Source: Lapillicoccus sp.
GTDB taxonomy: Bacteria > Actinomycetota > Actinomycetes > Actinomycetales > Dermatophilaceae
DNA length: 64,000 nt
Assembly (NCBI RefSeq): GCF_025353065.1
Contig: NZ_JANXRJ010000052.1
Span: 54,718 to 118,717, forward strand
Direction: 5' to 3'
Shown here: piece by piece, positions 1-64,000 of the stretch
Layout of the letters: every line of letters begins with the position of its first letter
Position numbering within the stretch: the stretch's first letter is position 1
Notes under the pieces: model-generated
Told to the model about the DNA's origin: nothing
Databases searched by the model: none
Seen by the model: only the letters and a program-made list of their open reading frames with translations
Translations under genes and position numbers: made by a program

Positions 1-1
1 G

Positions 2-1219
2 TTCATCGACGAGGAGCAGGCCGCGGTCGTGCTCACCGACCCGGCACACCGGGAGGTCGCCCGGGTCGCCGCCGAGCGGTCGGCCGTGCTGCTGCGCAAC
101 GAGGGCGACCTGCTCCCGCTCGACCTCGGATCGGTGGGCTCGATCGCCGTGCTCGGGCCGCTCGCCGACTCCCGGCGCGACACGCTGGGCCCCTGGGTGT
201 TCGACTTCGACCTCGCCGAGACCGTGACGGTGCTCGAGGGCATCCGGTCCAGGGTCGGTGACGCGGCGACCGTCTCCCACGCGCCCGGCGTCCGGCCCGC
301 GCAGCGCGTGTTCCCCTCGATGTTCGACATGTGGGGCGGGAACTCGCCCGAGGACCCGGAGGGGTTCGACGACGACGTCGAGCTCGACCGTGCGGTCGAG
401 CTCGCGCGCAGCTCGCGGGTCGCGGTGGTGGTCGTGGGGGAGTGGCAGAACATGATCGGCGAGGGGGCCTCGCGTTCCTCGCTCGAGCTCCCGGGGCGAC
501 AGCTCGAGCTCGTCCAGCGGGTGGCCGAGATCGGCACTCCCGTCGTGCTGCTCGTGATGAACGGCCGACCGCTCGACCTCCGCTGGCCCGACCGGCACGT
601 GCCGGCGATCCTCGACATCTGGTATCCGGGCTCCCAGGGCGGAGCAGCGGTGGCCCACCTCCTGTTCGGTGACGTCTCGCCTGCGGGACGGCTGCCGTTC
701 TCCTGGCCGCGGACCGTCGGCCAGATCCCGATCAACTACTCGCACACTCGATCTCACGACCCCGACCGGCAGAACCGGCGCTACTGGGACGAGGAGAGCA
801 CCCCGCTCTACCCGTTCGGGCACGGGCTCTCCTACTCCTCCTTCACGTATGCCGCCCCGGCCGTCGACACCGACACGATCGCCCCGGACCGGACCGTGAC
901 CGTCTCCGCGACCGTCACCAACACCGGTCGGCGGACCGCCGACGAGGTGGTCCAGCTCTACGTCCACCAGCGGCACGGCACGGCGTCGCGACCCGTCCGC
1001 GAGCTCAAGGGCTTCCAGCGGATCACGTTGGCGGCCGGGGAGTCCCGGTCGGTGGCGTTCACCCTGGGGGCGGCGCAGCTGCGCTACTGGAACGCTGCTG
1101 TGCGCGACTGGGTGCTCGACCCGTCCACGTTCGACGTCGGGATCGGCGCCGACTCGACGACCGCACTGACCGCGAGCTTCACCGTCACTCGCGTCCTCAG
1201 TGGGAGTCCCACCGACTGA
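2..1219 (+). CDS. Glycoside hydrolase family 3 beta-glucosidase, C-terminal part (5' end outside window)
   Basis: Frame open from base 2; RNEGDLLPL, GH3 C-terminal domain and fibronectin-III-like C-terminus (YPFGHGLSY...VSATVTNTGRRTADEVVQLYV). Confidence 0.9.
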   Translation, partial: FIDEEQAAVVLTDPAHREVARVAAERSAVLLRNEGDLLPLDLGSVGSIAVLGPLADSRRDTLGPWVFDFDLAETVTVLEGIRSRVGDAATVSHAPGVRPAQRVFPSMFDMWGGNSPEDPEGFDDDVELDRAVELARSSRVAVVVVGEWQNMIGEGASRSSLELPGRQLELVQRVAEIGTPVVLLVMNGRPLDLRWPDRHVPAILDIWYPGSQGGAAVAHLLFGDVSPAGRLPFSWPRTVGQIPINYSHTRSHDPDRQNRRYWDEESTPLYPFGHGLSYSSFTYAAPAVDTDTIAPDRTVTVSATVTNTGRRTADEVVQLYVHQRHGTASRPVRELKGFQRITLAAGESRSVAFTLGAAQLRYWNAAVRDWVLDPSTFDVGIGADSTTALTASFTVTRVLSGSPTD

Positions 1220-1278
1220 CCTCGACACCGCCTCCGCTCCACCGGTTTCCGGGCCGAGGGAGTGGGTACTGCCCCTGC

Positions 1279-1695
1279 ATGGGCGACTACGAGGAATCCA
1301 CCACGGTGGCGGTCAGCGCGAACGAGCTCTTCGGCTACCTGCAGGACGTGAAGAACCTGCCCCACTACCTCCCCCGGCTGACGTCGGTCACGCCATCGGG
1401 GGACGGCACCTACACGGTCACGGCGCACATCCAGCCGGAGGGCGGCGAGGCTCGCGACGTCGAGGGTGAGGCGTGGATGTCGGTCAAGACCGAGGGCCGC
1501 ACTCTCGCCTGGGGTTCGGCCGGACCCCACAACTACGAGGGTGAGCTGGACGTCGAACCCGGGGACGCCGAGGGCACGTCGCGCCTCACGGTGCGGTTGC
1601 ACACCGAGCGAGCCGAAGGGCCGTCGATCGAGAGTGGGCTCAAGGAGACCATCGCCGGGCTGAAGGACGCCGCCGAGTCCGCGTCCGAAGGGTGA
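1279..1695 (+). CDS. SRPBCC/polyketide-cyclase-like family protein
   Basis: 138 aa ORF; N-terminal STTVAVSANELFGYLQDVKNLPHYLP typical of SRPBCC/CoxG-like proteins. Confidence 0.7.
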   Translation: MGDYEESTTVAVSANELFGYLQDVKNLPHYLPRLTSVTPSGDGTYTVTAHIQPEGGEARDVEGEAWMSVKTEGRTLAWGSAGPHNYEGELDVEPGDAEGTSRLTVRLHTERAEGPSIESGLKETIAGLKDAAESASEG

Positions 1696-1852
1696 TCCCG
1701 CCTGCAGTGGCCTCCACGCCCTTCGGTGTGTTCGACGCCTGCACCGGCGGGACGGCTCCGGAGGGACATCCCCACGTCCTCGTCGTCGAGGTTCTTCGCC
1801 CTCGGTTCGACGGCCACCGGCACCCTGACGGTCTCGAACGGGAGCTGTCCGC

Positions 1853-2827
1853 ATGACCGACGAGAGCACCATCCCGAGCGACCTGCACCGTCGCGTGACC
1901 TGGCTGATCGCGTCTGGCGCGGCTGACCTCCCTCTTCCGGGAGCCGGGCGGACCGCGGCCCGCTGGGCCGCGCTGACGGCCCGGACCAGGGACGACGTCG
2001 TCGTCGGCCGGCTCGTCGAGGCCCACGCCGACGCCGACGCGATCCTCGCGCAGCTGGCTGGTCGCCGGGTCGCCGAGGACGAGTGGTGGGGTGTCTGGGC
2101 CGCCGAACCGCCCACCCCGCAGCTGAGGGCCACCCGGGCTGGTGATGCGTGGACCCTCACCGGAGGCAAGGTGTGGTGCTCGGGCGCGGGCCTGTGCAGT
2201 CACGCCCTGGTCACGGCCCGCGTCGGGCAGCACGACAGCGGTCTCTTCGCCGTCGACCTCGGTCACGAGGGAGCATCGGCGGACACGACCGTGTGGAAGG
2301 GCACCGGAATGGCGCGCAGCAGGACGGGGACGGTCACCTTCGACCGGGTCCCGGCCGAGCGGATCGGCAGCCGCTCCGACTATCTCGACCGGGCAGGGTT
2401 CTGGCACGGGGCGATCGGCGTTGCGGCGTGCTGGTTGGGAGGCGCCGAGCGGGTGGCAGACACCCTGCGTTCGGCGGCCGCAGCCCGGCCGCTGGACCCC
2501 CACGCCCTGGCCCATCTCGGTGCCGTCGACGCCGCGCTCGCCGGCGCGCGATGGACGATGGACGGGGCGGCTGCCGAGACGGACCGACAGCCGGACGACC
2601 GGGGCGCCGCCCACCTGCGCGCCCTGCGGGTCCGCGCGGTCGTCGAGGCAGCCGCGGCCCTGACGATCGACCGGGTCGGACGAGCCCTCGGTCCGGCACC
2701 CCTCTGCCAGGACGAGATCCACGCCGGCACCGTCGACGACCTGCTGGTCTACCTGCGGCAGAGCCACGCCGAACGCGACCTCGCGTCCCTGGGGGGCGTC
2801 CTCGCCGCAGGAGGACACGATGGGTGA
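1853..2827 (+). CDS. Acyl-CoA dehydrogenase-like protein
   Basis: 324 aa; WTLTGGKVWCSGAG and ACAD middle-domain-like sequence. Confidence 0.7.
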   Translation: MTDESTIPSDLHRRVTWLIASGAADLPLPGAGRTAARWAALTARTRDDVVVGRLVEAHADADAILAQLAGRRVAEDEWWGVWAAEPPTPQLRATRAGDAWTLTGGKVWCSGAGLCSHALVTARVGQHDSGLFAVDLGHEGASADTTVWKGTGMARSRTGTVTFDRVPAERIGSRSDYLDRAGFWHGAIGVAACWLGGAERVADTLRSAAAARPLDPHALAHLGAVDAALAGARWTMDGAAAETDRQPDDRGAAHLRALRVRAVVEAAAALTIDRVGRALGPAPLCQDEIHAGTVDDLLVYLRQSHAERDLASLGGVLAAGGHDG

Positions 2828-2977
2828 CCCGAGCCACGCGGACCGGCTGACGAGGTCGACGAGACGGGTCGCGGCACACCCGTCCTCCCCGGGGGAGCGG
2901 TGGCCGCGCACGAGCGCGCTGCGCTGTGCCGACGGGCCACGCGTCCTCGGAAGCCGCTCGGGGACTAGCGTGCTGCC

Positions 2978-63345: not shown

Positions 63346-63351
63346 CCCGCC

Positions 63352-63428
63352 AACCGCTTGCGCACACCCTTGCGTCCGCGGAAGTGCTCGCTAGAGCAAC
63401 CACTCGCGCGGACGCAACGCCAGCGGTT
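63352..63428. repeat. Long inverted-repeat element, family D, filling the der/hypothetical convergent gap
   Basis: AACCGCT..TTGCGTCCGCG ... CGCGGACGCAA..AGCGGTT with inner TGCTC/GAGCA. Confidence 0.85.
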
Positions 63429-63751
63429 CAGCCGTTGGCGACCTGGTAGACCTGTCCCGCCTCGAGATCGGTCGCGACCGCGTCGATCCACCGCTCCGGC
63501 TGGGGCCAGCGGTCGCGCGCCTCGAGCTCGCGCTGCAGGGCGACGCCGATGACGTCGCGCGCCGCACCGAGGTGGCTCTCGGCTACCGCGTCGATCGCCT
63601 GCTGGAGATCGTCGCCGGCCTGGCGGTGCTCGTCGTGCCGACCCTGAAGAGGGTCGACGGCCTCCCGCGTCTCGTCGGTGTGCTCGATGACTTCGGTGAG
63701 TGCCTCGGCCCAGTGGGAGCCGGGCTCGGCCGGGCGGGCGGGTTCGGACAT
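63428..63751 (-). CDS. Hypothetical protein, 107 aa
   Basis: Codon-biased ORF convergent with der. Confidence 0.6.
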   Translation of the reverse strand: MSEPARPAEPGSHWAEALTEVIEHTDETREAVDPLQGRHDEHRQAGDDLQQAIDAVAESHLGAARDVIGVALQRELEARDRWPQPERWIDAVATDLEAGQVYQVANG

Positions 63752-63921
63752 GGTGGGACCCCTCTCAGGAATGCCTCAGGCCTGCGCCCCCCACGGGTGA
63801 TCCGCCATGGGGTTGCGGCGATGGCAGCCGTTCGAGGGACCGATTTCGGACGTTCGTCCGCCGTGCGATAAGGTTCCACTCGCTCTTCCACCGGGTTGTC
63901 CGACCGGCCGGAGGGGTGCCA

Positions 63922-63995
63922 CGGGCTGTGGCGCAGCTTGGTAGCGCACTTGACTGGGGGTCAAGGGGTCGCAGGTTCAAATCCTGTCAGCCCGA
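63922..63995 (+). tRNA. tRNA-Pro (GGG anticodon)
   Basis: Acceptor CGGGCTG/CAGCCCG, anticodon stem CTTGA-CTGGGGG-TCAAG, T-loop GGTTCAAATCC. Confidence 0.95.
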
Positions 63996-64000
63996 CCGAA

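Follow-up and report, generated by a model that had tools for sequence, protein, structure and literature searches.

A review describes uptake sequences only for the Pasteurellaceae and the Neisseriaceae, both of which are Gram-negative (PMC5031613). The DNA uptake sequences (DUS) of the Neisseriaceae are a trait of the family, occur in thousands of copies at about 1 per kb, and fall into dialects which share a constant core and differ from one another by single bases around it; some genomes contain two dialects, inverted pairs are found in terminator-like hairpins, and some members of the family lack DUS (PMC3630211). Natural transformation of Micrococcus luteus requires ComEA, ComEC, and a Tad/Flp pilus (PMC4322843; PMC8467076). 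Here we describe the octamer CGGCATAC (opposite strand GTATGCCG), which is highly repeated in a 64-kb stretch of DNA (termed the window, i.e., the whole stretch that was analyzed) and in the genome containing it, a 5.1-Mb draft of 343 contigs (G000). Relatives of its RuvB protein suggest that G000 belongs to the Dermatophilaceae/Intrasporangiaceae group, which comprises Knoellia, Terrabacter, Pedococcus, Ornithinimicrobium, and others. Judged from its sequence properties, the octamer is probably a DNA uptake sequence, that is, a self-DNA tag, of this Gram-positive actinobacterial family.

An earlier reading of the window (the original prediction) had drawn attention to about 50 copies of the heptamer GGCATAC/GTATGCC on both strands, with roughly 6 expected for independent bases. 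Exact counting yielded 51 sites (26 GTATGCC and 25 GGCATAC) and an expectation of 6.1 for independent bases, and all 39 coordinates listed in that reading fall within 9 bp of a real site. First-order and second-order Markov models predict 1.9 and 2.6 copies, respectively, corresponding to a 20–27-fold enrichment. When all words were ranked, the octamer proved to be a better unit than the heptamer; its 46 copies, as compared to 1.1 expected, account for 46 of the 51 heptamer sites of the window. The whole genome contains 3,866 heptamers (1,945 forward, 1,921 reverse) versus 654 copies of the reversed word (a conservative choice of control, given that reversed word and motif can overlap), and 3,681 octamers versus 184 for the control, i.e., about 1 octamer per 1.4 kb. 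The flanks of the octamer are almost unconserved, with weak preferences at positions –3 (C) and –2 only. The genome-wide count, which the original prediction had proposed as a check, thus lies far above the Markov- and codon-corrected expectation: a short word is over-represented throughout the genome at about 1 per kb, beyond what codon usage and composition predict.

The codon-corrected expectation was obtained from 302 kb of G000 (the window and 18 further stretches), in which genes were called and synonymous codons were shuffled within genes. The coding regions of this sample contain 164 octamers, as compared to 10–12 expected (14–16-fold, z about 45), placing the word at the top of all 8-mers. 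None of its one-mismatch neighbors is comparably enriched, and the 24 neighbors taken together are not depleted either (187 observed, 195 expected). A sharp single word without enriched or depleted neighbors is expected if the exact word is favored at equilibrium, rather than being made from near-matches. The three forward frames contain 58, 16, and 7 copies (1.4, 0.6, and 0.7 after codon shuffling), and the two reverse frames that occur contain 73 and 10 (6.7 and 1.1). The two commonest frames use rare codons, namely, GCA-TAC (Ala-Tyr) and TAT-GCC (Tyr-Ala); a 9–27-fold enrichment also applies to frames in which the word changes the protein sequence (Gly-Ile, Arg-His, Met-Pro). Intergenic DNA of the sample contains 36 octamers versus 0.94 expected. 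The original description of the word as independent of reading frame therefore needs to be qualified, since most coding copies lie in two permissive frames; nevertheless, both orientations and all occurring frames are far above the null, and confinement of the enrichment to one reading frame is excluded.

The word is restricted to a family and varies within it. In whole-genome counts, GGCATAC occurs at 200–1,156 copies per Mb in 33 of 60 genomes of the family, whereas all 38 genomes examined from the order's other families remained at background; likewise, no enrichment of CGGCATAC outside the family was found in a class-wide sample of 395 genomes. Four dialects, CGGCATAC, CGNCATAC, CGGCATCC, and CGNCGTAC, together cover most of the family and share the frame CG(G/N)C(A/G)T(A/C)C, in which C1, G2, C4, T6, and C8 are constant. 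The CGNCATAC dialect, which accepts any base at position 3, is used by G005, G028, and about eight other genomes; in G005, each of the four position-3 bases is enriched 7–9-fold. CGGCATCC occurs in 3,949 copies in G027 and in 3,816 copies in G018, and in G027 it is enriched in coding (274 versus about 60 expected) and intergenic DNA (124 versus 4.9). G002, although a congener of G000, uses CGNCGTAC, as does G025. Coding copies of this dialect number 319 versus 125 expected in G002 and 256 versus 78 in G025, with every frame enriched, and intergenic copies 55 versus 9 and 15 versus 4, respectively; in both genomes, the sixteen one-change contexts of CGNCGTAC are not comparably enriched (0–1.4-fold). 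The possibility that CGGCGTAC in G002 and G025 merely reflects a codon-pair effect was overturned by the checks for any base at position 3, for all frames, and for one-change contexts, which identify a real dialect. CGNCGTAC is also the dialect of the samples from G041, G049, G055, Allobranchiibius (L018), and L036. Two dialects coexist in an Ornithinibacter metagenome-assembled genome (L027), with 6 copies of CGGCATAC versus 0.6 expected and 11 copies of CGGCATCC versus 2.2.

In a tree built from RuvABC and YebC proteins (50 genomes of the family and 4 outgroup rows), 17 changes suffice to explain the dialect labels, as compared to 28 for shuffled labels. Of the two major clades, one mostly uses CGGCATAC and the other CGNCATAC and CGNCGTAC, both deep splits being moderately supported, while CGGCATCC is nested in the first. 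Several lineages of the family show none of the four dialects, meaning that enrichment was not detectable when some of the words were counted in the whole genome or when a sample of about 10–40 kb was examined. Another congener, G001, has 249 sites per Mb, as compared to 757 in G000, together with a full match to PilM, and could represent a decaying or weakened system. In G079, from another family of the order, CGGCATCC is raised as a raw count taken without a codon null (1,548 versus 184 for the control). The tetranucleotide GTAC is avoided in coding DNA of G000, at 0.38 of the codon-shuffle expectation and in most contexts, as is CTAG (0.40); GTAC is not avoided (0.9) in G002 and G025, which use the GTAC-containing CGNCGTAC. 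Possibly, the avoidance in G000 is due to restriction, which would also block CGNCGTAC there.

Conservation of individual sites follows the dialect. Coding sites of the window with alignable orthologs and conserved residues were compared between genera; the comparisons share ancestry and are drawn from nine sites, so that the following numbers serve as an illustration and not as independent tests. Genera using CGGCATAC retain the exact octamer in 38 of 65 comparisons; for genera regarded as motif-free at the time, the figure is 2 of 37. The latter include users of CGNCGTAC, which likewise lack CGGCATAC; G002, for example, was still classed as motif-free in this test and in the earlier RuvABC/YebC tree, both of which predate the recognition of CGNCGTAC. 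At control dipeptides without a site in the window, the octamer is present in 11 of 210 cases in CGGCATAC genera and in 0 of 157 in genera classed as motif-free. Conservation of sites at synonymous positions extends to another genus only if that genus uses the dialect.

Judging from a few stretches, the word is rare in DNA of mobile or foreign appearance. In G005, 4 sites were counted in a 20-kb stretch with transposase genes, whereas most other 20-kb stretches contain 24–38 (about 31). In G000, no site is present on a contig encoding a transposase/integrase (0 sites in 4.6 kb of transposase-rich DNA) or on another contig with a lower GC content. Stretch L163 (G005:C1:1490001-1510000) encodes, at about 2.8–14.3 kb, transposase-like proteins beside helicase-like, DNA-methylase-like, and ParB/DndB-like proteins; as judged by eye from the translations, this almost motif-free region looks like a defense island in mobile DNA.

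Intergenic copies tend to form inverted pairs. Within 50 bp, such pairs involve 6 of 41 intergenic but 2 of 167 coding sites in G000, and 22 of 126 versus 4 of 284 in G027. In intergenic DNA of G000, the density of octamers is 2.8 per kb between convergent genes and 0.4 per kb between divergent genes, albeit based on small numbers. The window contains two hairpins of inverted octamers. The terminator-like hairpin at 29109..29143, with a 15-bp stem and a 5-nt loop (fold –31 kcal/mol, z –6.1), is located between the convergent genes 28162-29091 (+) and 29332-30075 (–), and its left and right arms contain the sites 29116..29122 (+) and 29130..29136 (–); here and below, sites are exact matches to GGCATAC, and the strand is the orientation of that word. 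The hairpin at 9910..9933 has a 10-bp stem and a 4-nt loop (z –2.4), lies between the plus-strand genes 8879-9805 and 9956-11950, and has arms containing the sites 9910..9916 (–, left) and 9927..9933 (+, right). Inverted pairs at terminators or in intergenic hairpins were observed in G000 and G027, not in G005.

The other plus-strand sites of the window are located at 4954..4960, 5416..5422, 9020..9026, 10609..10615, 12501..12507, 13215..13221, 15331..15337, 23010..23016, 24973..24979, 28041..28047, 31851..31857, 36799..36805, 38840..38846, 42800..42806, 43542..43548, 45857..45863, 48901..48907, 50545..50551, 51217..51223, 54777..54783, 56324..56330, 58812..58818, and 60065..60071. On the minus strand, the other sites are at 847..853, 3256..3262, 3949..3955, 7082..7088, 7586..7592, 9466..9472, 13077..13083, 15940..15946, 17504..17510, 23472..23478, 27766..27772, 32013..32019, 34215..34221, 35854..35860, 36501..36507, 42863..42869, 44901..44907, 45695..45701, 50598..50604, 52687..52693, 53935..53941, 55077..55083, 57631..57637, and 61687..61693.

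The genome of G000 contains an intact-looking comEA-comEC operon (L128:5573-8889) and 11 matches to TadE-type pilins. As predictors of the motif, ComEC, ComEA, the Tad ATPase, and TadE were rejected, their presence being universal or nearly so; com and Tad genes hence permit the motif but do not predict it, and the difference between genomes should lie in a receptor. Weak TadE matches are commoner in dialect-free genomes (6 of 12 versus 2 of 38), an association that disappears when phylogenetically independent pairs are considered. Of the strongly motif-bearing genomes, only that of one congener contains PilM, a marker of type IV pili, and a link between type IV pili and the motif was rejected on these grounds.

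The DUS resemble the present word with respect to density, lack of polarity, hairpin pairs, restriction to a family, single-base dialects, co-occurrence of dialects, word-free relatives, and depletion in mobile-looking DNA; the two dialects in the Ornithinibacter genome recall the two DUS dialects in Simonsiella. However, the hosts of DUS are Neisseriaceae with the minor pilin ComP as receptor, whereas the present family is unrelated, Gram-positive, and has about 71% GC. The word has 8 bp rather than 10–12, and the essential DUS core CTG is absent from it. Moreover, since most motif-bearing genomes lack PilM, recognition would have to rely on a Tad/Flp receptor or on one of another kind. With the uptake signal sequences (USS) of the Pasteurellaceae, the word shares a short core at about 1 per kb, both orientations, and lineage subtypes; it differs in being unrelated in sequence to the USS core (AAGTGCGGT) and in having no constant flanking tracts beyond the weak preferences at –3 and –2. 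HIP1 (GCGATCGC) of cyanobacteria is a highly iterated, lineage-limited octamer found in coding and intergenic DNA, and the same can be said of the word described here; in contrast to HIP1, which is palindromic, CGGCATAC is not, and it has base-substituted dialects. Micrococcus luteus belongs to the same phylum as G000 (PMC4322843), which with its comEA-comEC operon and several TadE-type genes has comparable equipment, but uptake sequences are not mentioned in the two reports on M. luteus cited here (PMC4322843; PMC8467076). No other actinobacterial family surveyed carries CGGCATAC.

The main rival to an uptake sequence is accumulation driven by mutation or repair, in which a methyltransferase or a mismatch-repair endonuclease of matching specificity turns near-matches into the word, the dialects being due to turnover of the enzyme, as modeled by a proposal for HIP1 in cyanobacteria and by very-short-patch repair at Dcm sites. 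Fast-evolving enzymes would indeed also give rise to dialects and patchy presence, GTACGCCG would yield GTATGCCG by a C-to-T change at CpG, and CGGCGTAC is depleted in G000 (8 versus 37). However, this depletion reflects the general avoidance of GTAC in G000 (0.38 overall) and is not specific to a precursor, and the 24 undepleted neighbors (187 versus 195) mean that conversion cannot supply the approximately 150 excess copies. Besides, the word is not palindromic, and an excess of its sites is found in hairpins as well as in reading frames where it alters the protein. We therefore consider this explanation unlikely.

A slightly poorer candidate is a site that is maintained by selection on chromosome structure and bound by an abundant nucleoid, chromosome-organizing, or other cellular DNA-binding protein. 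The genome-wide and non-polar distribution of the word, its maintenance at orthologous sites, and a spacing in G027 that is more even than random would agree with such a role. Yet selection on structure alone would hardly justify the fixation of rare codons and amino acid changes at about 3,700 sites; congeners differ (CGGCATAC in G000, CGNCGTAC in G002), several family members have no dialect at all, and this role would not lead one to expect intergenic hairpins formed by near-identical inverted pairs. A recombination or segregation motif such as Chi or the FtsK-orienting polar sequences (KOPS), while comparable in density and length, is very improbable and was rejected, because the orientation of the octamer does not follow replication but is balanced relative to GC skew (101:107 in G000, 113:93 in G005, 192:218 in G027) and to gene strand (81:85 in G000), in agreement with the original prediction, which had spoken against polar motifs of the FtsK or Chi type. 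Similarly, hardly any weight is left for the ideas that the word is a dispersed repeat element or simply follows from base composition, from codon usage, or from a peptide that recurs: coding copies do mostly encode Ala-Tyr or Tyr-Ala, but the Markov and codon-shuffle nulls (14–16-fold excess with protein and codons fixed), the enrichment in intergenic DNA and in frames that need rare codons or change amino acids, the almost unconserved flanks, and the absence of the word from related families of similar GC contradict them.

Of the roles considered in the original prediction, an uptake signal, a methylation motif, or a nucleoid-protein motif, the first is best supported, owing to the lineage dialects, the intergenic hairpin pairs, the dialect-tied conservation at orthologous sites, and the absence from mobile-looking DNA. 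From these features, the enrichment itself, and the com genes, we infer the following course of natural transformation in the family. A DNA receptor at the surface or in the cell wall, perhaps a minor pilin of the Tad/Flp pilus or a ComEA-type protein, would bind the octamer in either orientation, and fragments carrying it would be favored for import through ComEC. Recombination of imported fragments with the chromosome would spread word-carrying alleles, so that the word would accumulate where it is tolerated, i.e., at synonymous codon positions and in intergenic hairpins, while changes in the receptor would shift the recognized word and thus generate dialects. With somewhat less assurance than for the word as such, we lean towards the view that a Gram-positive family independently evolved sequence-specific uptake, with at least four dialects reproductively separating genera and even congeners, and with a receptor of the Tad/Flp-pilus or ComEA type rather than a ComP-like type IV pilin. 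The best reading is that this is the first candidate uptake-sequence system in Gram-positives; no prior report of the word or of actinobacterial uptake sequences was found in the literature searched, which did not extend to subscription papers and preprints.

Several observations weigh against an uptake sequence. Nearly all genomes of the order, including those of motif-free relatives and other families, encode ComEC, ComEA, and Tad components; this analysis identified no sequence-specific receptor, and no uptake or transformation experiment for the family was found in the literature searched. The orthology and mobile-DNA tests all rest on small samples. In G005, inverted pairs are not in excess in intergenic over coding sites, and sites are not concentrated in convergent intergenic DNA. 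Even spacing was seen in G027 only (coefficient of variation 0.75 versus 0.92, none of 500 shuffles being as even); the spacing in G000 cannot be told apart from random placement, and in G005 the sites cluster more than random ones do. Overall, the word appears to act like an uptake sequence in every sequence-level test except even spacing, found in one of three genomes, and placement at terminators, found in two of three.

If the octamer is an uptake sequence, it would represent a third independent origin of such tags, in high-GC Gram-positives, and self-DNA discrimination would be no quirk of two families. The dialects would provide a second set for asking how receptor and tag co-evolve. Widespread natural transformation would be implied in a little-studied family of soil and wastewater bacteria, and adding the right octamer to donor DNA would offer a practical handle for genetics where tools are lacking.

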